A stretch of 64,000 bases of DNA from Trichomonas vaginalis G3 (taxonomy: Eukaryota > Parabasalia > Trichomonadida > Trichomonadidae): assembly GCF_026262505.1 (NCBI RefSeq), contig NC_067206.1:34921896-34985895 (forward strand), read 5' to 3'. Below the pieces are notes generated by a model that was not told where the DNA came from, ran no database searches, and saw only the letters and a program-made list of their open reading frames with translations. Below are positions 31,679 to 60,045 of this stretch, one piece after another (position 1 is the first letter of the stretch; the number at the start of each line of letters is the position of its first letter). Made by a program: the position numbers and the translations under genes.

Positions 31679-31946
31679 TTTAAATTTATATTTTCCTATT
31701 ATTTTAAATTAGCGAACAAAATCAAAAATCAAATTTCAAAGATAATTTGATCAAGTATTTTGATTGAAATTTGATTAACACAGATAATTTTAATCTCTTT
31801 GGATCACTTGGAAAGATTCATTTTAATAAAAACGCTATTTTTCCAAATTTGAATTAAGCAAGTTATTGAAAACAACTGAGGTAGCAATCCAAAATGTTTC
31901 CAGGAACAAAAATACTTATTTTTTTGTTGAATTTTTGAAAATTTAA

Positions 31947-33038
31947 GGGTCCACTGTAAAAATTGAAAGTCTCTCAAAATTGAGAGGCGATTTGCAAATA
32001 ATCGTTATCGTCATTTTTCGAAAATCCACTTTTCCTAGTGTTCTGATTAATATTTTGTGAATGTAACAATGAAGCATATGTTTTAATAAGATGATAATAT
32101 ATTCTATCACTTCAAATCACATAAAAATTGCAAAATCAGCGAGTTTTATAAGAACATGATTTTTTCCTATTTTTTTGCTTCTGGATGCGTGTTTTGAAAA
32201 ATAGATATTTTCGAATTTTGATTTTATTATAAGTATGAATTTTATATTAGGAATTTTTTGACCTATTTCCAATCATTAATTCCTAAGTTTTTCTAGGAAT
32301 TAAATTGAGAAGAAATTAGGAAATTCGCTTTAATGCCATTACATACTAATATTATGATGCATAATATATATATTTAAAGAGGCTAATGTCGGAATATCTT
32401 GCATTTAAAAAAAATTCAAAGAATTGACAATTGGATAGCACAAATTTAATTCCCTGGACAAAGTATTATTGTTTATATATTCAAAACATTATCCTTAGTT
32501 TTGAAATGTTGGCCAAAAATTTTCGTGTTATTTTTTGTGTTTAAGCATAAATTATGTATTTACTTATGAAAGATAAGCATTTTATTCATTATCATAAAGA
32601 TATACCATAACAAATTGATAACATTTAAAAAAAAGTGTATTTTAGTGGGTATTATTCTGGCCAATGCCCATTTTTAAACAATTTAATATTGACCATATCA
32701 ATAGCCGACTCAATGTAAAAATTTAGATATTATTTTTTTCATTAATCAAACTTTGATAAATTTTAGTATAATAAATGATTTTGTTTCGTGTATGATACAG
32801 AAATGAAAAGCTTAATTAATATCATTTTGCATTTTTTCAAGAATGTTAGAGTACATCTACATTAAAAAATCGGATTCGAATTGCGATACTGCATCAAATT
32901 GTTGCACATCTGATAAGGATCTCAAAAGAGTAAAGTTAATTTTTTTGTGTTTTTTTAAGTTTTGGGTCTTAGTAAAACACCATCTTGAGCAATATTTTTG
33001 GGATGACGATAGGCCTTATTTGGCCTTACAGTGGACCC
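31947..33038 (+). mobile_element. Element D, copy 1, between TTAA sites
   Basis: 1092 bp with 13-bp terminal inverted repeats GGGTCCACTGTAA, each end next to TTAA (31943-31946 and 33039-33042). It is nearly identical, in reverse orientation, to 37966-39058. The match between the two copies continues beyond the outer end for about 140 bp (31808-31946 against 39059-39196) but stops at the inner end, so flank and element were duplicated together. No transposase frame is seen; the 60-70 codon frames at 32843 and 32985 are artefacts. Confidence 0.75.
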
Positions 33039-33183
33039 TTAAATGTTGTTGAATTCAAAAATTCTGTAATTTTTGTTGCAAATGTTTCTTTGATCTATTA
33101 TAATAAATTCCATTTTAACATTGAAGGCATTACAAATCCACACAAAATAAAAATTCCATTTGAATTTGGAAAATAAATTTTGA

Positions 33184-35045
33184 ATGGTAATAAAGAATAA
33201 TTTGAATACAATGAAAATTTTTCATATTTTTTTAATATCTTCAACAGAAGGCGCGCTCAGTAAATTCTCCGAGCTCATGCTCTTGTACAAAGATAGAGGC
33301 GAAGTCTTTGAAGCCTTGGGCCATCTCAATACATGCAATAAAGAAGAAATTAACAAAATCTTTCAGCAGATCAAAAAAGTTTTGATTGATTCTAATGAAA
33401 ATTCAGTCAATGATATCCTAGTCCTTATCTCTAAGTTTGCTATCTTCAATAATCGTTATTTCAGATCATATTGGGAACTTTTCAAACTCATCTTCGAAGA
33501 ATACCGTCCAAAATATGAAGGCATACATCCTCTTTTTTATTATCTGATTTACAAAGAATACGGAATAGGTTTTGAAGAGAAATGTGGAATTCGATTCAGC
33601 GATTTAGAATCTCAACACGTTTCATTGAACACTCTTGAAGAAAATACCATTTCCAAAGCTATTATGGATGATAATGTTCAATCATTTATAAACTTCACGA
33701 AAGTCGATGGATTTAATGAAAACCAGAAATTCAAAGTGTATTTTATCCAGACTCATATGATGGCTATTCATTATTAGAAATAAGTTGTTTATATGGATCC
33801 ATTGAATGTTTCAGATACATAAGAACAACATTCAATGCGGAGATTACTCCAATATGCCTTTCCTTTTCATTTTTGGGAAGAAATCCTGAAATCATTCATG
33901 AGTGCCTCGCAAATATAAAACCCGATGATTTTGCAATGGAATGTGCAATTATTTCACATAACATGGATTATGTAACATTGTTATACAATACATACAATCT
34001 GAAAATCGAGGTATTCAAATGCATTGACTTCAGAAATCTCCCAGCATTTTTCTATTACTATGAGCAAACTAATGATGCAGAATGCTTTATCGAGTCACCA
34101 AAATTAAAAATACAATCACTTTGTGCATATTTCATTTCACATGGCGCTGCAATCAACGAAAAATCATCACTGAATCGTACAGCAGTTCATTTTGCTACAA
34201 AGTGTAATGATAACAATATGGTTGAATTCCTTATTTTACACGGCGCAGATATCAATATAGTTGGTGATATTCTTAGCGGTTCATGCCTCCAAATTGCAAT
34301 TACAAATAGAAATTTGGAGTTAGTAAAAATCCTTCTTTTCCATGGTGCAAAATTAAAACATGATTCCAACGAGCAGTACTCAGCTCTTCGCACTTGTGCA
34401 AGGTGCGGAACAAAAGAAATCGCTCAACTTTTATTAGATCACGGAGCAGATTTCAATGCAGAAAAAGACCTTCTACATGATTCTGCATTAAAGAACAATA
34501 CAGAAGTGGCCGAATTCCTTCTTCAACACAGTGCAGATATTAATGCACGTTCATTTGATGATTCAACACCTCTTCATCGTGCAGCTCTCGGCTGCTCGTT
34601 TGAAACAGCTAAATTCCTTATTGACAATGGGGCAAATGTCAATGCAAAAACAAAAATAGAAAGAACTCCATTTCACATACTTGCATGGAATCCATGTCAA
34701 CAGGCTTTCTACGTTCTCTTAAGAGATGACCGAATTGAAAATTCAAAAGAAACTGACAGAGTTGCAGTTTTCCAGTCAGTATCAAATAAAATCAAAGACT
34801 TGGTCGAATACTTCATCTCTCATGGCGTTGAAATAGATGCCAAAGATGAAAAAGGAAAAACTCCTCTCCATTATGCATCCAAATCGAATAACCTTGATAT
34901 GGTTGAAGTTTTGATTTCTCATAATGCTGATATCAATGCGAAAAGCCAAAAAGGAAAATCTGCTCTCTTTTATGCAGAAAAGGCCAACAACAAAGAAATA
35001 GCAGATTATCTTAAATCACACGGTGCTGAAACAATTCCAGTTTAA
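33184..35045 (+). pseudogene. DUF3447-type ankyrin protein with one frameshift
   Basis: The frame from the ATG at 33184 gives the family N-terminus (KFSELMLLYKDRGEVFEAL, NRYFRSYWELFKLIFEEY, YLIYKEYG, ENTISKAIMDDNVQSFI) and then leaves frame near 33,745; the next frame carries on without loss with YDGYSLLEISCLYGSIECF and FSFLGRNPEIIHECL and runs to 35045 with about eight ankyrin repeats (TPLHRAALGCSFETAKFLID, TPLHYASKSNNLDMVEVLIS, SALFYAEKANNKEIADYLKS). A single one-base indel explains the break, so this is a young pseudogene or a sequencing error. It lies between the two inverted copies of element D, directly upstream of a second ankyrin gene in the same direction. Confidence 0.85.
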
Positions 35046-35247
35046 GCATCGATTCTTTTCTCGAATAAAAATTTTCCCATATCATAAGAATTGAGATTAC
35101 TCATTGAATTTTTTTGAATATAAATTCTATAAAGTATTTGAAAATCAATCTCATAATAAATTATGATGTACGATGAATAAACATATATAATAATCAAATA
35201 AAAATAACGTGTTAGGCCACTCAAAAAATAAAATTATTGAAAAATTA

Positions 35248-36747
35248 ATGACTATTGCTTTATTTGAAGAATCGCTTCCTGCGGAATTTAAAATTCTTAT
35301 CACAGCCACCGATATGCTTTGGGAGATAGAAGAAGATCAAATAGAGCAAATTGTTGATGGTTTAATCAAATCAGTTGAGACAAAATTGCTCACTGATAAA
35401 GATATCGCTATGATGATAGACTACGTTTGCTCAAAAAGATGCAAGAAATCCAAATTATATCTTAAAACAATTAAAGACTATGCAACAAGACAAAATTTTT
35501 TCATTCCTCCAAAATGTATTGAGAATTCTGACGAATTAAAAGCGTTACTCTTGATTGAAAACCAAATATATGGAGCTTTGCCTGATCAATACATTGGAAA
35601 ATATGAAGAAGAAATTTTTCAAATTTACAAGAAAGGTTCGATTTTACACGCCCTATTATGGGATGATTTAGAAGAACTCCAGCAATTTACATTCAATGTA
35701 GATTTCGATTTCAATAGGAGAATTCAAGGATTATCTCTCGTAGAGCACGCTGCTAAGAATGGTTCTGTAAATTGTTATAAATATTTAATTTCAAATGATG
35801 CAAACATATCATCCGAAACATTACAATTAGCTTATCTTGGAAATGATTTCGAAATTATTCATTCTGCCGAAGAAAAAGGAGAAACAGAAGAACTTTGCCT
35901 GAAAAACGCTGTTATGTCACACTACTACGATGCTGCTTATTATTTACACGACAAATACCTCTTTGAATACAAATGGGATTGGGCTTTAAGAAGTTACAAC
36001 TTTTCAATGTTCTTTAACAAACTTTATGAGTCAGATAATGTTGATAATAAGGATGCCGATGGAGATACAGCCTTTTTATGCGCAACAAGGCTCGGATTAA
36101 GGTCAATTTGTGAAATGTTGATAGCAAAAGGAGCAAACATCGAAGAGAAGGATAGAGATGGGAATACACCATTGATTATTGCAGCTAGAGATAATATATC
36201 TGAAGTATTTGATCTTTTAATTGAAAATCATGCGAATGTCAATGCACAAAACAACGAAAACTATAGTGCATTGATGTATGCAAGTGAAAATGATTACATG
36301 AGCATCATAGAAAAGCTCTTTGAAAACAAAGCAAGCGTAGATTTATTTAATATTTACGGATGCAGCGCTTTAATGCTTGCTTGTCGAGCAAATAGACTTG
36401 ATGTTGTTAAATTACTGCTTAAAAAGCACGCATACATCGAAAGACGTTCAACAGAAGGTTATACGAGCATAATGCTTGCAGTTCAAAATAATAACATACA
36501 AATCGTAAAGTATTTAATAGATAATAGAGCTAATCTTGAAGCTAGAACAAATGATGGCTTCTCAGCATTGATGATTGCATGTGAACACAATTATGTCGAA
36601 ATTGTGAAATTATTGTTGGAAAATAAGGCCGCAATTGATGCTACTGATGAATATGGGTTTAATTCATATATTCTCGCATCAAGGTACAAACATACAGAAG
36701 TTATTAAGCTTCTTAAAAAGTACAACAATAAGTGCAGAATTTGTTAA
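35248..36747 (+). CDS. Ankyrin-repeat protein of the DUF3447 type
   Basis: 499 residues from the ATG at 35248; the open frame extends upstream only to a GTG. The helical N-terminal part (to about residue 155) is followed by the family block (LSLVEHAAKNGSVNCYKYLI, LQLAYLGNDFEIIHSAEEKG, KNAVMSHYYDAAYYLHDKY). Seven well-kept ankyrin repeats follow from about residue 270, for example DTAFLCATRLGLRSICEMLI, TPLIIAARDNISEVFDLLI, SALMLACRANRLDVVKLLL and SALMIACEHNYVEIVKLLL. No signal peptide or membrane segment is present. It is intact, unlike the upstream ankyrin gene 200 bases away, to which it is only distantly similar, so the pair is not a recent tandem duplication. Confidence 0.9.
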   Translation: MTIALFEESLPAEFKILITATDMLWEIEEDQIEQIVDGLIKSVETKLLTDKDIAMMIDYVCSKRCKKSKLYLKTIKDYATRQNFFIPPKCIENSDELKALLLIENQIYGALPDQYIGKYEEEIFQIYKKGSILHALLWDDLEELQQFTFNVDFDFNRRIQGLSLVEHAAKNGSVNCYKYLISNDANISSETLQLAYLGNDFEIIHSAEEKGETEELCLKNAVMSHYYDAAYYLHDKYLFEYKWDWALRSYNFSMFFNKLYESDNVDNKDADGDTAFLCATRLGLRSICEMLIAKGANIEEKDRDGNTPLIIAARDNISEVFDLLIENHANVNAQNNENYSALMYASENDYMSIIEKLFENKASVDLFNIYGCSALMLACRANRLDVVKLLLKKHAYIERRSTEGYTSIMLAVQNNNIQIVKYLIDNRANLEARTNDGFSALMIACEHNYVEIVKLLLENKAAIDATDEYGFNSYILASRYKHTEVIKLLKKYNNKCRIC

Positions 36748-37965
36748 CTTTACAAATTTCCGATACAGCCTCTCAATTTTAATTATATATTTTTATCATG
36801 AAATTTTAATGTGTTTATGTTTTGTTTAATAAATGAATTTTTATGTATTTATTCAATTTTCAGATTTCTCAAAATTTTTGTCAAGACTGTCAAAATTTTG
36901 TCAAATTATTTTTCAAAAAACATCGATCAAGAATTCCTCATGAATAAGCAACTAAAACATAAACTATTGAGAGCCTAGGTTAAGATCAAAGCAATCTATT
37001 TGCATTTTTGCAGAATATTATCATTTTCAAAAAAGATCCAAAATTTCTATCACACGCAATCAAGGATCATGTAAGACTATTAGAAGAAAAGCTCATTGAT
37101 TATTTAAGGAAATATAATAAATTTAATTTTTTTGTGTCTTGAATCTAGCATTCAGAGGTTATTAATTGAACCCATATATTCATATCATGAATTTAGTCTG
37201 CAAGTAAGTATATAAATGCTTTTATACGTAATTATGTAGAGACAATTTTCGATAATTAAGGCAATATGATTAGATTCGGAATTTGGAATACTGTAGATTA
37301 ATTCAGAATAGAAATAGCTGTTCCTTCCAAGTTTAATACAATATCAAGATAGAAAAATTTCAACTCGGAAATATTCCAATTAATACTATATTCCGAAGAG
37401 TCATGCTACAACTTTAAGATCACATTTAATCCTAACATAATAATTTTGATGTATTGACCAAAAATCTTACTGTACGTTAAAATCGGACCGAAATCATCTG
37501 CGAAAGTCGGTTTTGATCAATGAATTTCTATATCTATAATAAAGTTTTCCTTAATTGTGCAAATATCTAAGTTTGGATATGCAATAACTTCCTTCACAAA
37601 AATTTTATTCATCGATTTAGATTTTTCGAGATATCGAAATTTTAATTATATTCTGATACTTTTAATGCAACCGGATATCTCATGCAACACGTAATGCTCG
37701 CTTTGACTTATATAGTGGCAGAATTATCTTCAATTTTGAGAACCTCAAATGAGTTCAATCTATTTGGTATTATGCTTTGCATCACATGATAATAGAACTG
37801 ATTCCAGAATAGGGAGAATGTTAAACAATATACAACATTTCGATAAAATTTTGCATTATCATCTCTGAGAGGTGTATTGAAATAGATAGACTCAAAATCA
37901 TATTACAAATATAATTTTCGCAGTATTTTGTAAAATGAAGTGTAATTTAAAAGTCAATTTTTTAA
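36748..37965. other. Intergenic region, nothing recognised
   Basis: About 1.2 kb of AT-rich sequence between the ankyrin gene and element D copy 2. No frame of interest and no repeat matched elsewhere in the window. Confidence 0.5.
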
Positions 37966-39058
37966 GGGTCCACTGTAAGGCCAAATAAGGTCTATCGTCG
38001 TCCCAAAAATATTGCTCGAGATGGTGTTTTACTAAGACCCAAAACTTAAAAAACACAAAAAAATTAACTTTACTCTTTTGAGATCCTTATCAGATATGCA
38101 TGAATTTGATGCAGTATCGCAGTTCAAATCTGATTTTTTAATGTAGATGTACTCTAACATCCTTTAAAAAATGCAAAATGATATTAATTAAGCTTTTCAT
38201 TTCTGTATTATACACGAAACAAAATCGTTCATTATACTAAAATTTATCAAAGTTTGAATAATGAAAAAAATAATATCTAAATTTTTACATTGAGTCGGCT
38301 ATTGATATGGTCAATATTAAATTGTTTAAAAATGGGCATTGGCCAGAATAATACCCACTAAAATACACTTTTTTTTTAAATGTTATCAATTTGTTATGGT
38401 ATATCTTTATGATAATGAATAAAATGCTTATCTTTCATAAGTAAATACATAATTTATGCTTAAACACAAAAAATAACACGAAAATTTTTTGCCAACATTT
38501 CAAAACTAAGGATAATGTTTTGAATATATAAACAATAATACTTTGTCTGGAGAATTAAATTTGTGCTATCCAATTGTCAATTCTTTGAATTTTTTATAAA
38601 ATGCACGATATTCCGACATTAGCCTCTTTAAATATAAACTACATGCATCACAATATTAGTATGTAATGGCATTAAAGCGAATTTCCTAATTTCTTCTCAA
38701 TTTAATTCCTAGAAAAACTTAGGAATTAATGATTGGAAATAGGTCAAAAAATTCCTAATATAAAATTCATACTTATAATAAAATCAAAATTCGAAAATAT
38801 CTATTTTTCAAAACACGCATCCAGAAGCAAAAAAAAAGAAAAAAATCATGTTCTTATAAAACTCGCTGATTTTGCAATTTTTATGTGATTTGAAGTGATA
38901 GAATATATTATCATCTTATTGAAACATATGCTTCATTGTTACATTCACAAAATATTAATCAGAACACTAGGAAAAGTGGATTTTCGAAAAATGACGATAA
39001 CGATTATTTGCAAATCGCCTCTCAATTTTGAGAGACTTTCAATTTTTACAGTGGACCC
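37966..39058 (-). mobile_element. Element D, copy 2, inverted
   Basis: 1093 bp, the reverse complement of 31947-33038 with few differences. TTAA borders both ends (37962-37965 and 39059-39062) and the terminal repeats are the same. The shared outer flank, 39059-39196, includes the leader and the first codons of the gene at 39183, so the copy at 31808 carries an orphan, inverted duplicate of that gene start. Confidence 0.75.
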
Positions 39059-39182
39059 TTAAATTTTCAAAAATTCAACAAAAAATAAGTATTTTTGTTC
39101 CTGGAAACATTTTGGATTGCTACCTCAGTTGTTTTCAATAACTTGCTTAATTCAAATTTGGAAAAATAGCGTTTTTATTAAA

Positions 39183-39581
39183 ATGAATCTTTCCAACGCT
39201 CAGCTAGACGGCCACGACCATCCTACGTCACCTCTAGCTGATCAAGTCTTTTCCCCTATGTCAGCATTGACAAGAGGTCTTACCAGTCCATCAAAAGTTT
39301 TCGATTTTAACATTGGAGTTTTCAATGACTTCAATGACGTTAGATACAACGATGCATCCGATCCAATATTTAACGACGATTTGTTCCTCTCTCCTAAAAA
39401 GCCAGTTATTGACCGCAATATTCCAATACCGATAATAAACCAAACAACAACGAAACGAATTATAGATAGACCTGCTCAAAAAGTACAGAAGGCTCGTTTT
39501 GTTATGAAGCCATTTGCTACTTTTGACTCAATAGAATTAACAGTTAAATCGTTAAATAGCATATCCACTATTAAGGTTTAG
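39183..39581 (+). CDS. Small protein of unknown function, probably disordered
   Basis: 132 residues from the ATG at 39183; the open frame extends further upstream but into transposon-flank sequence. Rich in Asp, Asn, Ser and Pro with repeated short SP/TSP words (PTSPLADQVFSPMSAL, GLTSPSKVFDF, FLSPKKPV), which could be phosphorylation sites for proline-directed kinases. The C-terminal 40 residues are more basic (TTKRIIDRPAQKVQKARFVM). I do not recognise a family. Its start codon and leader are duplicated in inverted orientation at 31808, next to the other element D copy. Confidence 0.55.
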   Translation: MNLSNAQLDGHDHPTSPLADQVFSPMSALTRGLTSPSKVFDFNIGVFNDFNDVRYNDASDPIFNDDLFLSPKKPVIDRNIPIPIINQTTTKRIIDRPAQKVQKARFVMKPFATFDSIELTVKSLNSISTIKV

Positions 39582-42286: not shown

Positions 42287-43084
42287 ATGAATTTTACAAA
42301 ACCACCGTTACCGTTCTTTGGAAATAAGAGTAGATGTAAAGATATTATATTGAGAGAACTTAAGAAACTACCGAATGGTCTAACATTTGTAGATTTGTTC
42401 GGTGGAAGTTTCTATATATCCCATTTATGTCATACCGTATTTCCTGACTCAAAGATTATATGCAATGACTTCGACAACTATATGGACCGTCTCAAACATA
42501 TACCAGACACAAACAATATATTGAAAGAGTTAAAAGAAAAGATACCTATAGGTAAGATGGAACGTATACCATTAGATAAGAAAAATATTGTGAGAGAGGT
42601 TTTGAAAAAAGCAGAATATATAGACTGGGATAGTATATCTGCTAGACTATTATATAGTGGTGCTATAAGAGTTCATGACATTGAAACACTTATGTCAAAA
42701 GTTTTATATCTTAACTATACAAATGTTTTCAAAGAGGACATAGAAAAATATATTGAGGGTATAGAGTTTGTGAGATGTCATTGGACAGAGTTGTATGAAA
42801 AATATAAAGACAAGGAAAATGTTTTCTTTATAGTGGACCCGCCGTTCTATAACACATGGGATTTTCAATACCAAGTAGACTGGACTTTGAGAGACTCTTT
42901 AGAAACTTTAGACGTTTTACATAACCATCCATGCTTTTACTTTACATCCGATAAAAGTGGTTTGGAAACCGTTATGAGATGGTTAGAGGACATACATGAC
43001 TATGAGTTTAGATATGACAAGATAGAATATGAGAGAGGTCCTATAAACCGGAGAAGTGTCATAACAAAGAAATTTTATTGGTAA
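42287..43084 (+). CDS. D12-class adenine-specific DNA methyltransferase
   Basis: 265 residues, intact. The N-terminal PPLPFFGNKSR (residues 6-16) is the F-x-G-x-K binding motif of Dam/D12 enzymes; VDLFGGSFYISH (35-46) is motif I for S-adenosylmethionine; and VDPPFYNTWDF (183-193) is catalytic motif IV, DPPF in place of the usual DPPY. Length agrees with Dam-type enzymes (about 260-280 residues). The family transfers a methyl group to N6 of adenine in a short DNA motif. No restriction endonuclease gene is next to it, so it is either an orphan enzyme that marks the element's DNA or part of its life cycle. It is the first gene inside the left end of the element, preceded by a T-rich leader. Confidence 0.9.
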   Translation: MNFTKPPLPFFGNKSRCKDIILRELKKLPNGLTFVDLFGGSFYISHLCHTVFPDSKIICNDFDNYMDRLKHIPDTNNILKELKEKIPIGKMERIPLDKKNIVREVLKKAEYIDWDSISARLLYSGAIRVHDIETLMSKVLYLNYTNVFKEDIEKYIEGIEFVRCHWTELYEKYKDKENVFFIVDPPFYNTWDFQYQVDWTLRDSLETLDVLHNHPCFYFTSDKSGLETVMRWLEDIHDYEFRYDKIEYERGPINRRSVITKKFYW

Positions 43085-43869: not shown

Positions 43870-44715
43870 TTATATTTTTACCGTTCGATAGTAGTTGTAT
43901 ATGAAACTAAGTTCTAAGTAAAACGCATGGTATAATGGAATTATTCTTTTTCTTCCATCTGTAGTAAACCATACTTGAAAGTCTGAAATACTTCCACTTG
44001 GTGGTTCGTATAACTTTGTAGGTTTTTCGTAAAAGTCATTTGCCAAGCATAGAAAGAGTTTTGGGCGCCAGAAAATGAAGCATGAACAATAATAGCATCT
44101 TGGTCGAAAATATTTTCATATGTTCCATTAGGGTTTTCGACTTCATAATAGTCCGGGTGTACTGGATATACTGCAGGCTGATTTAACATCCTCATAAATC
44201 TATACCATGCCAAGTTGTTATATTTTGTAGAAATATAAACGTTTCTCCAAGGTCTTCTATTTTTTTGATTTTAACAGTTGCATTTTTTCCTGTCATAAAT
44301 ATATCGAGATGGTATTCTCCTTCGTCAATGTTATACTGGTTTGCATATTCGATATAGATATCGTTTATTTTTTCTTGAAAAGCTTGAAGAGTTGTTTCTA
44401 AGTTTACAAGCAAACTAACTTGTAAAAGTTTTCCCTGTTCAAATTTCTCATACATACGTTTTTCTTTGTTATAGTATCGAACTTCAAAAACCAACCGTAA
44501 ATGGGAAACCATGTATGGCTTCTGAAATGAACTTCATTCTACGAAAGCCAATAGCTTTTGTGACGGATGGGTCTCTTAGCCATCTTAATGGGTAGTCAAA
44601 ACGATAGCCTTCATGCTTTACGGTATCTGTCTCAAACTTTGACCGACATTAGTAAAAGTTCATCTAATGGTTTAGTTGTAGCAACTCTTGAATTTTCTTT
44701 TTCTATTGGAAGCAT
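43870..44715 (-). pseudogene. Decayed copy of the unknown gene at 49058
   Basis: From an ATG at 44715 the start resembles the 49058 protein (TTKPLDELLL against DTKPLDYIF), and other frames on the same strand continue the match: YRFDYPLRWLRDP against YRFDYPIRWLQSP, AIGFRRMKF against AIGFRRVLF, IIVHASFSGAQNSF against VMCHASFSSSNNSF, and IIPLYHAFYLELSFIYNY near the end against IIPLYYDFYLELSFIYNY. At least three frameshifts or stops break it, so only the open pieces 44192-44512 and 43941-44213 are long. It shares a near-palindromic start region (TTTTATCTAGAATAAAA) with the fibre gene that begins 19 bases to the right. Confidence 0.75.
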
Positions 44716-44733: not shown

Positions 44734-46140
44734 ATGTCGAAAGATATTGCTTCCATGAGAGAAATACAACACAACCGACAACTCATTATGCAAGCTCTAA
44801 ATAAGAACACAACAAACTTTTCAAACTATTCTAAGATATCTGAGTCATTGAAAGAAGGAAACTTAAAACTGACATTAAACCCAATGACAGATGAGTTTCT
44901 ATTTCAAGACAAGAAGAACAATACTGTCTGTATAAATCCAACAAAAGGAACTTTAAACGAGAAACCTATAAATGAACTTCTTTTGAAAACAGATGTTGAC
45001 AACAAAGCTGACAAAGAATATGTAGACGATGCAATAGCAAAAGAAGAAGAAAGAGCTAACAATGCTTATGCAACAAAAGAACATACTCATCCTGAACTAG
45101 CAGACAAAACATATGTTGACAATAAAATGTCAAGTGAAGTGACAAGAGCTGAAAACGAATATTCTAAAAAGACTCATATACATTATATTAACCAAATACC
45201 AAGTCTTAAGGAAACATTAGAGACAAAAGCAGATAAGACTCATACACATTATATTAACCAAATACCAAGTCTTAAGGAAACATTAGAGACAAAAGCAGAT
45301 AAGACTCATACACATTCTATATCTGATATTACAAACTTACAAGAAACCTTAAACAGGAAAAGTGCCGTTGGACATACACATACATCTTCTGAAATAACAG
45401 ACTTAAACGTTAGCCTTGAAAAGAAAGCAGATAAGAACCATACACACGATTTCTTCGCAACTGTTGGTATAGAAAATATTGAAGGAACGGTTGAAGGAGC
45501 TGATGGAACTGGTGGGGATGTATTGTATTGGAAACCTCCTAACTTTCCACAAGGTTTAACATCGAATGAAAACATAACAACGAAGAAAGACATTAGCTGT
45601 AAAAATGTTTTTGTCATGGAGGATGAAAATAAAGTTAAATTCACTGCTCAAGATTTATATGACAAGAAAGCAGACAAAACAGAGCTTCAAACATTAAAGA
45701 CTGAAATACTTCAAACATTATATCCTATAGGCTCTATTTATACGTCAATGAACTCTACCAGACCAGAAGTAGTACTTGGTTTTGGAACTTGGACTCAAAT
45801 AGTCGACAGGTTTTTGTATTGTGCAAACTCTTCAAAGGAAACAGGTGGAAGTAAAACGATTTCAGGTGAAAATTTACCTGCGCACAGTCACTACATAGAT
45901 TTAAGTACATCTCAAGCAGGTTGGCATAAGCATAGATATTGGGATTGGTCAGCAATGACAAAAGGTAAAGGATATGATGTTAAAGACAACGTTAAGTTTG
46001 CTATAAATTGTTACTGGAGTAACACTGAGGGAGGAGGAAACCATACACATTTCGTTTCAGGATATACGCAAACAACGGGACAAAGTAAAGAATACATGCA
46101 ACCTTACATGACAGTTTACGCATGGTATAGAATTGCTTAG
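44734..46140 (+). CDS. Phage-like tail-fibre protein with collar-type C-terminus
   Basis: 468 residues, intact. Residues 100-235 hold six tandem repeats of about 22 residues ending in T-H-x-H (KKTHIH, ADKTHTH twice, VGHTHT, ADKNHTH), two of them identical; this HTH-type histidine repeat is typical of phage tail fibres, where it binds metal ions in a trimeric shaft. After a short linker, YPIGSIYTSMNSTRPEVVLG and FGTWTQIVDRFLY (about 330-365), SGENLPAHSHYI and the end PYMTVYAWYRIA are characteristic of the phage tail-collar/receptor-binding domain. No signal peptide. By analogy it would be a host-attachment fibre on the particle encoded by the element. It is flanked by the integrase gene, which ends at 46137 and overlaps its stop. 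Confidence 0.9.
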   Translation: MSKDIASMREIQHNRQLIMQALNKNTTNFSNYSKISESLKEGNLKLTLNPMTDEFLFQDKKNNTVCINPTKGTLNEKPINELLLKTDVDNKADKEYVDDAIAKEEERANNAYATKEHTHPELADKTYVDNKMSSEVTRAENEYSKKTHIHYINQIPSLKETLETKADKTHTHYINQIPSLKETLETKADKTHTHSISDITNLQETLNRKSAVGHTHTSSEITDLNVSLEKKADKNHTHDFFATVGIENIEGTVEGADGTGGDVLYWKPPNFPQGLTSNENITTKKDISCKNVFVMEDENKVKFTAQDLYDKKADKTELQTLKTEILQTLYPIGSIYTSMNSTRPEVVLGFGTWTQIVDRFLYCANSSKETGGSKTISGENLPAHSHYIDLSTSQAGWHKHRYWDWSAMTKGKGYDVKDNVKFAINCYWSNTEGGGNHTHFVSGYTQTTGQSKEYMQPYMTVYAWYRIA

Positions 46141-47095
46141 TCGTCATTTTCAACTTCTTTAGCATATTCGTCAGGAGTTGTCTTATATTTGTTAGGAACT
46201 GTCTTTGAAAGTATACCACCTTGAACTTTGACAAGTTTGAAACGAGGTCTGACAATAGTAGTTTTATCTTCTGCTTGCAGTGTGTACATTTTGCCATGTT
46301 TGCCTAAAACTTCATAATATTCTCTTGTATACTTTCTTCTATTTTTACGAACACGAATGTGAGTACCTGTCGGGTTCCCATTGTTGTCATAGTCAATAGT
46401 ATTTTCATATGGGTCGCGTTTAGGTATTTCTATTTTTACTTTGTCACCTTTCTGAAGTTTGAAGCCCGGCATTCTTTCTTGTTTGTCTCTTTTGACTAAA
46501 TTGTTAAATATATAGTCTTTCTCTAAGTCAGGGTTGTTTTTCATTTCTTCGGGGGAGTGGTTTCCCAAACCTTTTTGTTTACGGCTATTGTAAATATTTA
46601 AAACTTGTCTCATCTTTGCCATGGAGAAGTGTCTATATTTGTCGTCATATGACATTTCATTTGCTTCACCACCTTGTGGTTGGTTTAAGTCTCTTAACAT
46701 TTTTATACAACCGTCAATGACACCAAGAGCAGAATGGTTTTGGTCGACAATGAAATATTGGTTTACATTTTTTGAACGCAGATAGTTTTTAATATCATCT
46801 GATTTGAAAGAACTTTCACAGTCAGATGTCAGTTTTGTTGGATGGTATTTGTCAACGAATATTGTCAAAGCAGTTTTCACATCTAAAATATTTTTGGACC
46901 ATAATGGTATGGCTTCACAGTATCTTGTGTTTTGACCGACAAATATTAGCCGGTATGGTGGTCCATCTGTTCTAACTCTCGGAATGTTTTCCAAGATATC
47001 CATAAACCAAGCATTTGGTGTTGAACTAAAGATTTTTATCATGAGTGCTTTTTTGTTGCCTTAGAAACATAGGGGTCCTTGTTTGGATTCGTCAT
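46137..47095 (-). CDS. Retroviral-type (rve) integrase of Maverick
   Basis: The 301-residue open part starts at 47042. Its catalytic core has D15 (WFMDILE), D74 (LTSDCESSF) and, 35 residues further, D110 (HSALGVIDG) where the DDE family has glutamate. The C-terminal third is basic with a beta-rich segment (KKGDKVKIEIPKRDP-like, REYYEVLGKHGKMYTLQAED), consistent with a chromo/SH3-like DNA-binding region. The upstream ATG at 47095 opens 18 residues that end in TGA overlapping the next ATG; a one-base shift there probably separates the true N-terminus. The enzyme joins element ends to target DNA. It is divergent from the gene at 47113, with 17 bases between the starts. Confidence 0.85.
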
Positions 47096-47112: not shown

Positions 47113-47514
47113 ATGGGTTTATTTGGCGCATTAGCAGGAGTTGCATCTAGATTTTTACCCGCAGTGGGAACAATAGCCAGTGGTGCATTTGGAATTGGAA
47201 GGAAGATTTTGAGTACATTAGGTATACTTAAAGAGAAAGCACAACCTATTATACAAACTGTACAGAAAGGTTGGGAGGTAGCACGAGATGCAACAAATCT
47301 TATTCCAAATCCTGAAACAAGAGGAAAAGTTCAAGGATGGATGGACAATGTAGGAAGACAAGCAGGAAACTATTATAACAAAGCAAATGACTACTATAAC
47401 CAAGCAGGACACTATATGGACCAAGGTGAAAGATTCTTTAACAGAGGATATAACCATGCACAACAGTGGGTAAACAATAACCAACCTCAACCGCCTCAAA
47501 CTTGGGGAATGTAA
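47113..47514 (+). CDS. Gly/Ala-rich amphipathic Maverick protein
   Basis: 133 residues, intact. The N-terminal 40 residues are hydrophobic and glycine-rich (MGLFGALAGVASRFLPAVGT), a possible membrane-active segment. The middle is helical and polar, and residues 85-133 contain Tyr/Asn/Gln repeats (YYNKANDYYNQAGHYMDQ) and a Pro/Gln end (QPQPPQTWGM). It resembles in plan the frameshifted gene at 43623. It could be a minor capsid or membrane-piercing component; no family was recognised. Confidence 0.6.
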   Translation: MGLFGALAGVASRFLPAVGTIASGAFGIGRKILSTLGILKEKAQPIIQTVQKGWEVARDATNLIPNPETRGKVQGWMDNVGRQAGNYYNKANDYYNQAGHYMDQGERFFNRGYNHAQQWVNNNQPQPPQTWGM

Positions 47515-48447: not shown

Positions 48448-49032
48448 ATGTACGCTGAGTTTGTTGGAGAAGACCGTTGGGAAACTTGTTTGTTAGATGA
48501 GAAATATGAAATTCACTGTTGTGAGTCATTTGAAGTCAGAAACAAAAAGACAAAAAGAGTTTTAAGCGAATGGGAGCGAAATGACGGATATGCTATTATG
48601 AAGATGGGTGGGAAACGCTATCTTAAACATGTTGTCATTGCAACTCATTTTATACTGAATCCTAACAATTTACCTTTTGTAGACCATATAAACCATATAA
48701 GAAACGACAATAGACTTGAAAACTTACGTTGGGTCACTCGTTCTGAAAACAATAAGAACAAAGGCAAATTTGGAGATATTGTATTCGAATTTGTCGACGA
48801 ACTAGAAGATGAAACAATTGAAATTACAGACTATGGTAAGCATACGTTTGAGTTTTACTACTATAGCGAAGAACAAGACTCTTTCTACTTTTATACCGGC
48901 GTAAACTATAGGAAATTACAAGTATATTTTACTAAGGCGGGCTATGCTTATGTAAACACTAGAGATACAGATGGAAAATACGTTCAAATACTTCTTAACA
49001 AATTCAAGAAGCTATATGGCATACCATTTTAA
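48448..49032 (+). CDS. HNH endonuclease
   Basis: 194 residues, intact. Residues 79-104 read VDHINHIRNDNRLENLRW followed by VTRSENNKNK, the HNH_3 type signature with the metal-binding H80 and the N-x-N pattern. A short N-terminal tryptophan-containing segment (GEDRWETCLLDEKYEIH) resembles the DNA-binding NUMOD-like start of free-standing phage HNH enzymes. The C-terminal 90 residues are rich in Tyr/Phe and of unknown fold. Such enzymes cut DNA and often behave as homing endonucleases that spread themselves between related genomes. Position between unrelated small genes and a shortened copy upstream fit that mobile behaviour. Confidence 0.85.
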   Translation: MYAEFVGEDRWETCLLDEKYEIHCCESFEVRNKKTKRVLSEWERNDGYAIMKMGGKRYLKHVVIATHFILNPNNLPFVDHINHIRNDNRLENLRWVTRSENNKNKGKFGDIVFEFVDELEDETIEITDYGKHTFEFYYYSEEQDSFYFYTGVNYRKLQVYFTKAGYAYVNTRDTDGKYVQILLNKFKKLYGIPF

Positions 49033-49057: not shown

Positions 49058-49918
49058 ATGCTTCAGGTTGAAAAACAAAGAACAAAAGTAGCAGATACAA
49101 AACCGTTAGACTATATCTTTACAAATGCTGGTAGGACTATTTCAGATGAAGAAATTTCATCCCGAGCATACAGGTTTGACTATCCAATTCGTTGGCTTCA
49201 AAGTCCTTCAGATGCAAAGGCAATAGGATTTAGAAGAGTTTTGTTTTCAAATAGAACTAACGCATTTATGTTCGCAGTATATTTTCATGGGCAGTATAAA
49301 GGTTCTGATGGTCTAATAGACAAATTTGACGAAATGAGAATCTTTACGGTTCGTTCAGACGAAAGTCTTGAGAAAACTCTAAATGACTTTCAAACTCAAA
49401 TGAACAAATATTATTGGGAATTTCAAGAAAAATACGACTCTTTACTAAATGGAACATACTATCTGAAACTAGAATATGACAAGATGAACTCCACCGTTTC
49501 ATTTCAAAGGATTGAAATTAACCCTCCAAGAGATACAGAGTTTTTATTTTGGAAAGTAGACAAACGTTCTTGGGCACAATTTCTTCGGTTACTAAACCAG
49601 AACGAACCATTACCACCAGATGGTCCATTTAAATTTATACTTCCACCAGCAGATTTGACAGTTTATAGAAACGTGTTTGACCCTCAAAATGTTATGTGTC
49701 ATGCAAGTTTCAGTTCAAGCAACAATAGTTTTCTATGTATTGGTAAGAACTTTTATGACTTTGCTTCTAAATTCTACGAACCACCTAGTAACAGTTTCTC
49801 TGACTTTCAAGTTTGGTTCACAACAAATGGTGTGCAACATATTATTCCATTGTACTATGACTTTTATCTCGAATTGTCTTTCATATATAACTACGGAAAA
49901 GTGCTGAAAAAGTATTGA
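49058..49918 (+). CDS. Unknown Maverick protein, 286 residues
   Basis: Intact and preceded by TATTTTTCCATATATTAA. The sequence is mixed alpha/beta with many aromatic residues: YRFDYPIRWLQSPSDAKAIG, VLFSNRTNAFMFAVYFHGQY, FLFWKVDKRSWAQFLRLLNQ, VMCHASFSSSNNSFLCIGK and the C-terminal YYDFYLELSFIYNYGKVL. No catalytic motif recognised. Beta-rich, non-enzymatic sequence of this size would suit a virion protein; this is a guess. A broken copy on the other strand lies at 43870-44715, so the gene has been duplicated within the element. Confidence 0.65.
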   Translation: MLQVEKQRTKVADTKPLDYIFTNAGRTISDEEISSRAYRFDYPIRWLQSPSDAKAIGFRRVLFSNRTNAFMFAVYFHGQYKGSDGLIDKFDEMRIFTVRSDESLEKTLNDFQTQMNKYYWEFQEKYDSLLNGTYYLKLEYDKMNSTVSFQRIEINPPRDTEFLFWKVDKRSWAQFLRLLNQNEPLPPDGPFKFILPPADLTVYRNVFDPQNVMCHASFSSSNNSFLCIGKNFYDFASKFYEPPSNSFSDFQVWFTTNGVQHIIPLYYDFYLELSFIYNYGKVLKKY

Positions 49919-50709: not shown

Positions 50710-51048
50710 ATGTCCGACGTCCCACCAACCGAGTCCATTCCCAAACCAGAGGAACCTAAAGCACCAGCCCCTGCACCTCAGTTCCAGCAAGTACCTTCGA
50801 ATTACTACCAATTTCCACCTCAAGGTTACTACCCACCACAAGGCTTCCCGAACTACCCTCCTCCTCAGCCTATGCCTTACTTCCCCAACCCTTGGATGTT
50901 CCAGCAAGCTCCACCCCAACAATTCCAATCTCAATCCCAATCGAAGAGAGACCAAGAGTTCGAAGAAGGTCTGAACCGCTTACGCAAAGAGTATGCTACA
51001 GCTCCAATTGAGAGAAAGTTGTTCCCGGACCAAAAAAATAATGTTTAG
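50710..51048 (+). CDS. Proline/glutamine-rich Maverick protein
   Basis: 112 residues from the ATG at 50710, which lies at the very end of the repeat array; longer frames that read upstream through the repeats are artefacts. Begins MSDVPPTESIPKPEEPKAPA, followed by a low-complexity Pro/Gln/Tyr region (YYQFPPQGYYPPQGFPNYPP) and a helical, charged C-terminus (RDQEFEEGLNRLRKEYA, then KLFPDQKNNV). A short relative begins at 55202. Disordered adaptor-like protein; function unknown. Confidence 0.65.
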   Translation: MSDVPPTESIPKPEEPKAPAPAPQFQQVPSNYYQFPPQGYYPPQGFPNYPPPQPMPYFPNPWMFQQAPPQQFQSQSQSKRDQEFEEGLNRLRKEYATAPIERKLFPDQKNNV

Positions 51049-51104
51049 GTGAAGAGGTGAGATCTCACCTGTTTTTTCACCCTCATGAATTTTCATGAAT
51101 TTCC

Positions 51105-53540: not shown

Positions 53541-53642
53541 ATAACGTTTACCATGTAAAACGCTTATAAAATAACTGGGGTAGAAATGAGGTTAGAAAAC
53601 AGGTTAGATCTAACCTTCTACCCTAAACATTATTTTTACTGA
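53541..53642. repeat. Repeated intergenic segment, copy 2
   Basis: Second copy of the segment at 52020-52117. It contains a perfect 14-bp palindrome GGTTAGATCTAACC at 53602-53615 and leads into TTTTTACTGAATTCAGCAAC, a string that occurs again near 53,922. Confidence 0.7.
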
Positions 53643-55302: not shown

Positions 55303-56179
55303 TCAAGCTTGACTTTTTACAATTTGAACTTTGTTTGCGTAGATATGAATTCTGAAAGAAGTATGAGGGTCTTGTATGACTTTATACTTCTCCCATAGTT
55401 CATATCTGTCAAACTTACCTGCCATGGACTCTTTCATAAGTTCCATGAAATCGTCTTCGGACAATCCGGGGAAAAGTATTATGTCAGTAAGTATTCTTTT
55501 AACATCCTTACTTAAACTCTTTGCTGTCTGTACACAAATGACAACTGAGATGTTAAAGTGTCTGAGCTTCTTAAGAATTCGACACATGTCTTGTTCTCTG
55601 TTCTTTAACAAAGGATGAGAGGCGAAATCATCTAAGATAAGAAGACATCTATGAGGGTAAGTCTTCCAATCGTAAGATTGCAATTTCTTCGAAATGTATT
55701 CTATCTCTTTCTGTTTGTTTCTGAAGTGTTTCTTCTCTAATATTCTCTGCATTTCCTCATTTGGGTCTTTGAACTTAGAATTTATATACTCATTTATAGC
55801 ATTATACTTCAAAACTCTTCTTTGGTACTTTCTTTATCCAATCCAACAACTCAGAGTCTTTTATACATACTAACTTAGACTTCTTTATAATATCTTTGAA
55901 CGAATTGACGGTTTGGTCAAATTGACCAGAAGTACTACAAATGACTACTAACTCATAGAATGGGTTCTTCTCATCTAGTTCTTGTTGTTGTGCAGCCATT
56001 TTAAGATAAGTGAAAGTCTTACCAGACCCAGGTGGTGCAATTAGACCTGTTATACCATTCTGAGCAAATAAGAACTTGTCATGTATAGGTTTTATCTGAG
56101 CATTTTCTAACTTCACCTTGTTCTTGTTTAAAACATTCTCAAATTTCTTGTCAATGTCAGCAAACTTTTTTTCTAACAT
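55303..56179 (-). CDS. FtsK/A32-like DNA-packaging ATPase, one frameshift
   Basis: Two overlapping minus-strand frames form one gene of about 290 residues. The 5' frame, from the likely ATG at 56179 (MLEKKFADIDKKF), contains Walker A (LIAPPGSGKTFTYLKM) and the sensor-like segment VVICSTSGQFDQTV. The 3' frame (from about 55812) contains Walker B with two acidic residues (RCLLILDDFASHP) and VVICVQTAKSLSKDVK, a typical A32/HerA pattern. A one-base shift near 55,812 separates them, between Walker A and B, so the assembled copy could not make a working enzyme. In Mavericks this ATPase is thought to pump DNA into capsids. It is divergent from the gene at 56216, with 36 bases between the starts. Confidence 0.8.
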
Positions 56180-56215
56180 ATTTTTAGAAAAATTAAAATT
56201 TTTATCTTTTAGAAA

Positions 56216-56668
56216 ATGTCTAGCGATTTCGCTATCTATATTCGAGACAAGCTTTTCGACAGCAAAACATCTGTCGACCATAAAATCTTACATAGTGTAA
56301 ACAAGAAAGGTGAATTTGTTCTAAAGTTCTGTTTCTGGGAATATGACAAGAACCATAAAACATTAAGCAGAGCAGTCTTAAAATTTGTCAATGACAGACT
56401 TGTTGACAGAGATGACACCGATTGGAAAGATGAAGTCCAACAAAAGTTCTTAGAATGCAAAGAAGACACATGCGCTGTTCTTGAAGATGAAATAGAAAAC
56501 AGAATAGATGAGCTATTAAAGGATAAAGAACTTTTACATAAATATAGTTGCGCCAAATTTGACATAACTCCACCAGAAAAGAAGAAGAGAGAAAAGAAAG
56601 AAAAGAAAGTAGACGAAGAGAAGAAAGAACCTGAACCAGTTCCAGAGAAAAAGAAATTTGACATGTAA
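56216..56668 (+). CDS. Unknown acidic/basic Maverick protein, 150 residues
   Basis: Intact from an ATG preceded by TTTTTATCTTTTAGAAA. The N-terminal 110 residues look globular (SSDFAIYIRDKLFDSKTSVD, FVLKFCFWEYDKNHK, LEDEIENRIDELLKDKELL). The last 40 are a Lys/Glu-rich charged tail (PPEKKKREKKEKKVDEEKKE) with Pro. Convergent with the gene at 56685, 16 bases away. No family recognised; a nucleic-acid or virion-internal role is possible. Confidence 0.6.
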   Translation: MSSDFAIYIRDKLFDSKTSVDHKILHSVNKKGEFVLKFCFWEYDKNHKTLSRAVLKFVNDRLVDRDDTDWKDEVQQKFLECKEDTCAVLEDEIENRIDELLKDKELLHKYSCAKFDITPPEKKKREKKEKKVDEEKKEPEPVPEKKKFDM

Positions 56669-57131: not shown

Positions 57132-58322
57132 TTAAAATTTACTCAGAAAATTTTTCTTTGTATATACACCATTCTGTACGTCTAAAAGACTTTTGACATT
57201 TGCCAAGAATGTACGTTTAGAAGCTGCCATATAACCATATTCTTGACAATATTGTTTATACGAATCGTACAATGACCTTTCATCTAATGACACAAAGTCA
57301 GTTTCATCTATGAACAGTTCATATACACTCTTGTTTGCTTCTAACAATGTTTGTCTCTCTTCGGTATGTGGAATTTGTCTTGGATTGAACTTAGAAATAT
57401 CTATTGTCATGAAATATGAGAACAAGTGGTTGTAAAAGTCAGATGTCAAAGTTTCTGCTAAGTCGTCAAAATATTCTGTATCTTGCATATGAGCTTCTGA
57501 CGTTCTGACAACTACATATCTTCTGTCAGAACTTTCTAACTTCATCGGAACAGCATTGTTTGAAACCATAATGAAGTTTGCAGCATTTTCACAAACTCTT
57601 TGGTCTTTATATTTTCTTTCAACAACTCCAACTTTGTCTGTTATAAGACTCTTCAAAGCATCTGAGTTCAAAATTTTTGTTGTATCTATACTTTGAAGTT
57701 CATTGCAAACTATAAGTTTCATATTCTCTATTGAGGAGTTAAATTTACCGCAGATGTTTTCTAAGTTTGTCATATTCGGATTCGAATAGCCCTCTAACAG
57801 TTTGCACAAAATATCTGTAAAGAAAGTATTCTTACCAGTTCCTTGTTTTCCAATTATAATGAGAGCAGTTTCATTTTTAGCACTTGGATGTTGTAAGATA
57901 TTTGCAAACCAACATAAGATATACTCATAGACTCTTTCGTTTCCATTGCATATAATTTCTTTGACATGGTCTAACCAAGCTTCTATAACATTTTCTTTCC
58001 ATTCTACTTGTTCGTATTTATATCCAGTGAAGATAGAATAGAAGTTTGGAGAAGGTGTATAAAACTTTATACCACGAACTGAAAAATCTTCTAACTTTGA
58101 CAATAAGATATCCCAAGCATCTAACATCTTCATGCCAACTTGTACGACTTTTATTTTCTTAAGTTTCTGTCTACATTCTTGTTCTGAAACTATTGTCGCT
58201 TTAGGTTTGTTAAAGACAACATCCCATTCTTTCATGACATAACATTCTGGGGCAGAGTCGACATAAATGACTAAACGTTTCAAATTCTCGACTGCTTTGT
58301 TATAGTCTCGAAATGGACACAT
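57132..58322 (-). CDS. Superfamily 3 helicase (D5-like)
   Basis: 396 residues from the ATG at 58322. Walker A is IIGKQGTGKNTFF (157-169), Walker B KLIVCNEL (202-209), motif C NFIMVSNN (249-256) and an arginine finger lies in SSDRRYVV (264-271): the order and spacing of SF3 helicases. The approach to Walker A (YILCWFANILQHPSAKNETA) matches the segment typical of poxvirus D5-type and parvovirus-type enzymes. It unwinds DNA for replication. In-frame coding-like sequence (RFYDFQAFRN) continues upstream of the ATG, while the leader-preceded ATG at about 58373 is in another frame, so the N-terminus may be shortened by a one-base shift. No primase domain is visible. Confidence 0.85.
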   Translation of the reverse strand: MCPFRDYNKAVENLKRLVIYVDSAPECYVMKEWDVVFNKPKATIVSEQECRQKLKKIKVVQVGMKMLDAWDILLSKLEDFSVRGIKFYTPSPNFYSIFTGYKYEQVEWKENVIEAWLDHVKEIICNGNERVYEYILCWFANILQHPSAKNETALIIIGKQGTGKNTFFTDILCKLLEGYSNPNMTNLENICGKFNSSIENMKLIVCNELQSIDTTKILNSDALKSLITDKVGVVERKYKDQRVCENAANFIMVSNNAVPMKLESSDRRYVVVRTSEAHMQDTEYFDDLAETLTSDFYNHLFSYFMTIDISKFNPRQIPHTEERQTLLEANKSVYELFIDETDFVSLDERSLYDSYKQYCQEYGYMAASKRTFLANVKSLLDVQNGVYTKKNFLSKF

Positions 58323-58400: not shown

Positions 58401-59198
58401 TTATTCTTGACTTTGTTGTTCCATTTGTTGCATTTGTTGTTCTTGAGCTATTTGTTGTTGAAGTTGTTCTTGTAATACAATACTTTCACCAGTTGCATCT
58501 TCCAATTCGAAACTTTCTGCCGTCATTGACAAATACATAGGACATAAAAGTTTTACAGGAACAAAGTTTGCGTCAACTAATGTCAACGTTATACTTGCCA
58601 AAGTGTTTGAGTTCACTAAGGTTGAAAATTCTGCATTCGAATGAACAATAGGCAAACCAGCAGAGAAAGTATTGTTTATACGCATAAGTATCTTTTGGTC
58701 ATAATAGTTTCTGTCGACATTCGAATAACACTTTGAACCTAAGTTTGAAACAATATATAAGATTGGTGTGCTTAATGTCAATGGAATAGACATTCCTTGT
58801 ATGACACCTTTTCCTGTTATAGGAAACTGTTGGTAGTAAAAACCAGAAATAAGTTTTGTATTATAGCTCATATCGTTTATAGTAAACTCAGTCGGACATC
58901 CAAACATAATGAAACCTGCTCTAGTTGCAGCACATGTTACACCCGTACTTAAAGTATTAAATAAGTCAACAAAACCTGTTGGTGGTATATCTGAGTAAGT
59001 ATCTTCAAAGGAGTATTTTTTACCATTCACAACAATAAAAGTCTTCTTGGTGTCAAAAGAGCAAAACAGGCTTTAGTCGTCATTGTGTTTAAGGTTAGTT
59101 TACAATATCGTCCTTGAGGACTTTGTAAGTTTGTTGTTATAGAATTATATGACTCAGGTTTTAGTCGTAATAGTATAAACCACTATGTCTTCTGCCAT
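58401..59198 (-). CDS. Candidate minor capsid (penton) protein, frameshifted start
   Basis: The open part (209 residues, starting only with GTG at 59030) is beta-rich: FVDLFNTLSTGVTCAATRAG, FYYQQFPITGKGVIQGMSIP, LASITLTLVDANFVPVKLL, followed by a Gln/Met-rich tail (EQLQQQIAQEQQMQQMEQ). An ATG at 59198 with a good leader (TTTTAAATATATAAAA) opens MAEDIVVYTITTKT, and two other frames between give NLQSPQGRYCKLTLNTMTTK and SFDTKKTFIVV before the open part, so two shifts interrupt the first 55 residues. Size (about 265 residues), beta content and position between helicase and capsid genes suit the single jelly-roll penton of Polintons. I see no diagnostic motif. Confidence 0.45.
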
Positions 59199-59446: not shown

Positions 59447-59980
59447 TTAGCAAATAAATTTTAATGAAATGTTGTGGTCGTCAAATATTTTTATAACGTC
59501 TGGGAAACTATACTTTAAGTTCAACGTTTCACCTCCTTTCATAACGTATATCTTGTCAATGACATTATATGAAACACCACAGCAACCAATGTCGGGTTCT
59601 ATTTCTTTGATGTTTATATCGTCTGCCTCTGTCAAAAGTTTCAATAGTTCTTTCAAAACTTCATGAGGTGCAATGACATATGAGTTCACTTTTACAGGGT
59701 TGTGTTCGACCAAGTTTAACATTATACTTAAAGCTTGACAAATCTTCTCCTGAGTTTGAAGTTTGTCTTTCAGTTGTTGGTAGTCGTTTCGAATATCTGC
59801 AACAGAACTTAAGTCTCTGCTAACTTCAGGATATGTTGGTTCTTTTACAGGAACAATTGTTATACCATCTTTGTCTTCGTATGGTTTCCCCACTTCAACA
59901 TCTCTGTCTTTGACATTGACAATAACACTTTGACTGTTTGTTTGAGTTGGTGAATTTAACTTCACATCTGCCACCGCCAT
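59447..59980 (-). CDS. Unknown Maverick protein, 177 residues
   Basis: The first good ATG is at 59980 (MAVADVKLNSPTQTNSQSVI); the frame extends 18 bases further only to a GTG. After a polar N-terminus come a short coiled coil (VADIRNDYQQLKDKLQTQEK) and a mixed region with EVLKELLKLLTEADDINIKE, GCCGVSYNVIDKIYVMKGGE and a C-terminal SFPDVIKIFDDHNISLKFI. Divergent from the gene at 60046. No family recognised. Confidence 0.6.
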   Translation of the reverse strand: MAVADVKLNSPTQTNSQSVIVNVKDRDVEVGKPYEDKDGITIVPVKEPTYPEVSRDLSSVADIRNDYQQLKDKLQTQEKICQALSIMLNLVEHNPVKVNSYVIAPHEVLKELLKLLTEADDINIKEIEPDIGCCGVSYNVIDKIYVMKGGETLNLKYSFPDVIKIFDDHNISLKFIC

Positions 59981-60045
59981 TAAACCTTTTTGAAACACTT
60001 ACGCTTCTATTTTTTCGGAAATGACATTTTACTTAGAATAAAAAG

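Follow-up and report, generated by a model that had tools for sequence, protein, structure and literature searches.

The open reading frame at 44734-46140 (+ strand) in Trichomonas vaginalis encodes what we take to be a receptor-binding fibre of the vertex type, belonging to a Maverick virus integrated in the genome; we put the probability of this reading at roughly three in four. In the window (the whole stretch of 64,000 nucleotides analysed), the gene is unbroken, as the preliminary description had stated; it runs for 468 codons from ATG to stop, and a stop-free run of this length has a chance of about 6e-16 given the base composition of 42-64 kb. We propose that the conserved N-terminal 94 residues would plug into the capsid vertex, most likely into a penton base that the same element encodes at a distance of some 12 kb. 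A trimeric shaft of variable length would be formed by the 22-residue repeats, whose H-x-H motifs may bind metal, and the gp10-type collar would present variable loops at its tip for contact with the next host trichomonad. The gene and its parts are:

44734-46140, + strand: fibre gene, intact ORF of 468 amino acids with anchor, repeat shaft, linker and gp10-type collar (Pfam PF12789 and PF21939; PHROGs tail families)
44734-45015, + strand: residues 1-94, which we propose anchor the fibre to the particle (across 99 copies, 70 of the 94 sites do not vary)
45016-45453, + strand: residues 95-240, shaft of phage tail repeats with H-x-H every 22 residues, the number of repeats varying among copies
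45454-45699, + strand: residues 241-322, variable linker (comparison of copies)
45700-46137, + strand: residues 323-468, gp10-type collar domain (Pfam and PDB sequence matches)
45892-46053, + strand: residues 387-440, variable collar tip (61 distinct tips in 99 copies)

Domains of the fibre protein

Two Pfam families, and no others at E<=0.1, match the fibre. PF12789 ('Phage tail repeat like') covers four stretches (E 1.3e-75), and PF21939 ('Baseplate structural protein Gp10, C-terminal domain') covers residues 325-467 (E 7e-26), with a score of 92.2 bits against a curated cut-off of 27. The preliminary description had read the protein as phage-type tail repeats with histidine motifs followed by a C-terminal collar-type domain. 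Both readings hold, the latter in the gp10 sense, and the strength of the profile matches removes the doubt it had raised that tail-fibre or collar families might fail to match. The H-[T/I]-H motif occurs at residues 148, 170, 192, 214 and 236, a spacing of exactly 22, with further motifs at residues 117 and 437. According to the accessible text of PMC11705849, H-x-H motifs hold iron, or are predicted to, in T4 and related fibres; by analogy, the motifs of the present fibre may hold a metal.

In PHROGs, the first match of the fibre is a family of unknown function (E 3.7e-18), with tail proteins next (best E 2.5e-17). A sequence search of the PDB at E<=0.1 matched residues 323-468 to three T4 gp10 sequences only (E 4e-4 to 4e-3). 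Residues 1-100 gave no match at E<=0.1 among 50,697 phage records. AlphaFold2 applied to the fibre monomer, with an alignment of 56 sequences, returned a pLDDT of 36.

The Maverick element and its likely penton base

The fibre is carried by a Maverick, as had been proposed, with an integrase, a packaging ATPase, a DUF4106 ORF and a likely penton in the same element; the linkage is seen in one copy, the present one. ORFs assigned to the element are found from about 42 kb onwards, and it continues past the window end at 64000. They follow the order DNA methyltransferase-like, broken DUF7777, fibre, rve integrase, HNH, DUF7777, DUF3839, KilA-N, A32-type ATPase (two frames), DUF4108, D5-type helicase, likely penton and DUF4106. 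The features that matter here are:

42287-43084, + strand: DNA methyltransferase-like ORF near the left side of the element (PHROG 56, E 3e-15; no Pfam match at E<=0.1)
46137-47042, - strand: rve-type integrase (PF00665, E 2.5e-7, 31.3 bits, slightly under the Pfam cut-off of 32.6)
48448-49032, + strand: HNH endonuclease of phage type beside the fibre block (PHROGs, E 8e-20), possibly a homing gene
55303-56281, - strand: A32-type packaging ATPase, split across two frames (Pox_A32, E 1.6e-7, at 55303-55812; weak ResIII/DEAD at 55802-56281)
57132-58322, - strand: D5-type helicase (DUF5906, VapE-like and Pox_D5 in Pfam)
58401-59198, - strand: minor capsid protein, likely the penton base and proposed as the fibre's socket, interrupted here (tblastn of P0242 at 59198-58473; fold of P0242; VIA)
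62205-63866, - strand: DUF4106 ORF (PF13388, E 2.2e-93, residues 1-148 matching profile positions 278-431)

The fibre sits between a broken relative of DUF7777 (43876-44715, - strand) and the convergent integrase, and the ends of fibre and integrase overlap by 4 bases. The preliminary description had placed it between the integrase and a small virion-like ORF; it is actually on the other side of the integrase. A second DUF7777 relative (49058-49918, + strand) flanks the fibre-integrase block on its far side, and the pair could be a sign of duplication or of a junction between elements. The small ORF at 47113-47514 (+ strand) has a glycine/alanine-rich amphipathic start, which we take to be reminiscent of membrane-active proteins of the adenovirus protein VI type. 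Many neighbours of the fibre were said to be broken, and this copy of the element indeed has a broken DUF7777 relative (43876-44715), a split ATPase (55303-56281) and an interrupted penton (58473-59198). No protein-primed DNA polymerase B was matched among the 29 ORFs scanned with Pfam, in an element that runs off the window at 64000. Likewise, no terminal inverted repeats bracketing the element were found within the window, which does not include its right end.

The family of the proposed socket has no Pfam domain and is recognised by predicted fold only. P0242, an intact database relative, gave a model with a pLDDT of 80 whose fold resembles the mavirus/adenovirus penton. In a Foldseek search of the PDB the mavirus penton came out on top (E 3e-10, TM-score 0.40, rmsd 8.3, 12% identity); the TM-score to predicted viral relatives is about 0.6, above the 0.40 to the solved mavirus penton. 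On the strength of this model, the family is likely to be the penton base of T. vaginalis Mavericks, of the single jelly-roll type. A scan of IMG/VR with the penton alignment found no relative.

Two other ORFs of the element bear on its capsid. Fragments at 61574-61960 (- strand) and in broken frames to about 59.9 kb resemble, by eye, the first part of a major capsid protein (MCP) of the jelly-roll type. The DUF4106 ORF, by contrast, has a helical look on inspection, with a Pfam match confined to residues 1-148; DUF4106 is the major capsid protein of T. vaginalis Mavericks according to the part of PMC10120064 that was accessible. Either may be the true capsid gene of this element. At E<=0.1, PHROGs held no match to P0242, to the MCP-like fragment, to DUF4106 or to the ORF at 59447-59998.

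Other repeats were noted in the window. Within the Maverick, 48-base inverted repeats (51034-51081 and 53590-53637, 83% complementary) enclose the DUF3839 ORF, which is possibly a nested transposon. Elsewhere, inverted arms of about 1.2 kb (31808-33043 and 37961-39196, 93-98% complementary) enclose two ankyrin-repeat ORFs (33873-36747). A further pair of 52-base inverted repeats (25126-25177 and 27810-27861, 96% complementary, 2.6 kb apart) possibly belongs to a DNA transposon.

Conservation and variation among the fibre copies

At least 710 proteins match the fibre at E<=1e-3 (7,992 candidates sharing most words were scored), and Trichomonas vaginalis is named for 118 of the best 120 of these matches. 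Their database names include 'phage tail repeat-like family', 'tail fiber protein, putative' and 'Baseplate structural protein'. Contigs of 20-40 Mb carry some of these relatives, which shows that the fibre gene is no assembly chimera; the concern that it might occur in this copy only, joined to phage DNA, falls away. By start and end, 99 of 121 fibre proteins are full length, in a set where gene calling favours intact ones. All 56 copies scanned contain both the PF12789 repeats and the gp10 collar. Collagen was not found: a run of at least four G-x-y triplets is present in none of the 121 proteins, and PF01391 in none of the 56.

Statistics on the 99 copies understate diversity, being drawn from the best 120 of at least 710 matches, picked by similarity to the present copy; a second T. 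vaginalis fibre type, with a collar about 50% identical, falls outside them. Invariant well-filled sites number 70 of 94 in the anchor, 57 of 92 in the collar core and 23 of 54 in the tip, and the mean minor-residue fraction is 0.048, 0.028 and 0.138, respectively. Taking sites as independent, none of 10,000 permutations matched the anchor against all well-filled sites, and none of 10,000 matched the tip against the core. The linker (0.123) and the well-filled part of the shaft (0.183) are about as variable as the tip: variability singles out the tip within the collar, not across the whole fibre. The shaft often differs by whole units, common protein lengths being 421, 443 and 465, i.e. steps of 22 residues. 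The fibre family combines a constant base, its first 94 residues nearly fixed, with variable tips, of which there are 61 among the 99 copies. The tips may be driven to change or may be less constrained.

Tips and linkers appear to have largely separate histories. In a split-half test of pairwise distances on 97 of the 99 copies (the other two have an alternative insert), rho was 0.68 within the tip and 0.72 within the linker, while tip and linker distances were unrelated (rho 0.04, or 0.03 at equal size). Rho between the other modules was 0.30 for anchor and linker, 0.20 for core and tip, 0.15 for anchor and core, 0.12 for linker and core, and 0.09 for anchor and tip. With 19 variable sites and a within-module rho of 0.11, the collar core gives the test no information, and for the anchor (0.37) the test is weak. 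The 30 pairs with identical anchors have a tip distance near the average (0.175 vs 0.196). Since tip and linker distances are unrelated though each is self-consistent, it is probable that copies have now and then swapped tips. The independence is incomplete: linkers are closer in the 87 pairs whose tips are identical (mean distance 0.119 vs 0.201 over all pairs), and core and tip retain the rho of 0.20 given above. A broader picture, in which the Mavericks of T. vaginalis are viruses whose receptor-binding tips are diversified through exchange between integrated copies, the parasite genome serving as an archive of swappable tips, would be a eukaryotic-virus counterpart of tail-fibre tip swapping in phages. 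We offer it tentatively and consider it rather doubtful as it stands.

The same data bear on whether the fibre is still in use. It may have worked on an ancestral virus, today's copies being silent debris whose conservation reflects the virus before integration, or gene conversion. The broken neighbours in the present copy fit this history, as does the near absence of Maverick mRNA. In the available text of PMC7845603, 25 of 38,656 Maverick and mariner ORFs exceeded the expression threshold in culture, and 507 of 4,808 Maverick elements had RNA-Seq coverage. One protein class is named there after its relation to PRD1 capsid and phage tail fibre; it may correspond to the present fibre, and a single one of its 3,907 analysed members was expressed. 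The high share of full-length sequences speaks against such a history, though gene calling favours intact ones, and the region-wise conservation together with the tip pattern suggests function at least during amplification. We consider the relic history unlikely. The decay of this copy and the silence of Maverick ORFs in culture do weigh against the receptor-binding reading, under which particles would still be produced today; so do the low TM-score to the mavirus penton, the incomplete independence of the tips and a missing adenovirus-type motif (see below).

A fibre in use could also be purely structural, a vertex spike or cement protein that binds no receptor, with the gp10-type collar merely capping the trimer. 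The only PDB match, T4 gp10, is named there as a baseplate structural or wedge protein, which suits this role. Collar variation nevertheless falls mainly within residues 387-440 and is for the most part inherited separately from the linker, as would be expected of an outward contact surface, and we think a purely structural role somewhat less probable again than a relic. It is very improbable that the parasite has taken the fibre over as an adhesin or for binding bacteria. The collar does resemble antireceptors of bacterial phages, but hydropathy shows neither a hydrophobic N-terminus nor a membrane segment, the gene lies inside an element beside an integrase, and there are many near-equal copies, not one domesticated gene. 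For these reasons we rejected a T. vaginalis surface adhesin as the main reading.

Origin of the collar and comparison with known systems

Among phage records, 128 match the collar; of the 25 listed, the best is a 'putative antireceptor' of Lactobacillus phage Ld3 (34% identity). IMG/VR yielded no relative with the single fibre sequence; with the collar alignment it gave 537 relatives, from which 80 loci were kept, and the ORF lists of 9 of these have by eye the look of tailed phages. Bacterial collar loci (80 kept from 163) are titled Bacillota in about 70 cases, many of them from animal gut by title. In a tree of 67 collars, 13 sequences from T. vaginalis share one side with 19 metagenomic sequences, and 20 bacterial, 12 phage or IMG/VR and three metagenomic sequences lie on the other, with a support of 90/94 for the split. 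The two diverged collar types of T. vaginalis are separated in this tree, and two metagenomic sequences join one of them. An earlier tree lacking bacterial rows placed the Lactobacillus collar on the T. vaginalis side instead, so that the two trees together point to no one donor of the collar. The rows of both trees were hand-picked, P0232 was dropped from the first, and a length limit removed from the second two bacterial loci with short matches, which covered roughly half the domain at 43% and 40%.

The preliminary description had inferred gene flow from phage, and recent gain or continued selection. Phage ancestry is plausible for the collar and the repeats; it would be old and undated, and the N-terminal 100 residues lack a phage match. 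Recent gain is not supported, as the collar lineage stands apart from the sampled bacterial and phage collars and contains two diverged types; the signs of protein-level constraint agree with the other half of the claim. Despite the profile matches to phage families, we reject both a recent capture from phage and a chimeric assembly with phage DNA, and give them almost no weight, considering the 34% identity of the best listed phage match, the many T. vaginalis relatives (some on contigs of 20-40 Mb) and a separate lineage shared with environmental sequences.

About a third of the T. vaginalis genome consists of Mavericks, and their missing capsid gene was among the last arguments for regarding them as transposons until it was found in 2023 (both from the accessible part of PMC10120064). 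A conserved fibre with exchanged-looking tips and a likely penton would be further evidence that Mavericks have spread between cells as infectious particles, and the two offer concrete proteins for seeking particles, receptor and host range.

The core idea of phage-like fibres on T. vaginalis elements is already in print. According to the accessible portion of PMC12220804, T. vaginalis elements (n = 20) join as many as seven phage tail repeats to a collagen-like domain; its authors make the case that cell entry by viruses of this sort relies on phage-like fibres. Those polinton-like fibres share with ours the species, the PF12789 repeats and the proposed role in attachment; they differ, as far as that text goes, in the collagen fusion, whereas the present fibres have a gp10 collar, no collagen runs and a described variation of the tip. 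In the open-licence literature, as far as it was accessible and with most subscription papers outside it, we found no mention of the penton family, of tip exchange, of the anchor-shaft-tip pattern or of a collagen-free architecture with a gp10 collar. The Organic Lake virophage proteins OLV18/19 likewise place a phage tail collar domain on a polinton relative, with a suggested role in adsorption; they are different proteins, likened to ours by description in the available text (PMC3671162).

Among phage proteins, the C-terminal domain of the T4 baseplate protein gp10 (PDB 2fkk, 2fl8, 5hx2) has the family PF21939 in common with fibre residues 325-467. In T4 it is part of a phage baseplate; the present collar sits on a repeat shaft, with an N-terminus that has no phage match, in an integrated eukaryotic virus. 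The antireceptors of Lactobacillus delbrueckii phages Ld3, LL-Ku and c5 are among the closest named phage collars listed (31-34% identity). These are phage genes, that of Ld3 following a gene annotated as glycerophosphodiesterase in a tailed-phage genome. Unlike gp10-collar proteins, which occur among tailed-phage tail genes, the present fibre has Maverick-type neighbours.

The adenovirus fibre, standing at the vertex on its penton base, is the model for how the present fibre may work, with the penton-like predicted fold of its partner as the link. Adenovirus-type fibres carry an N-terminal penton-binding motif, which we did not see on reading the N-terminus of the present fibre, and the PDB search gave no sequence relation between the two. 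A fibre of phage type attached to a penton of adenovirus type would bring the attachment parts of both together in one virus.
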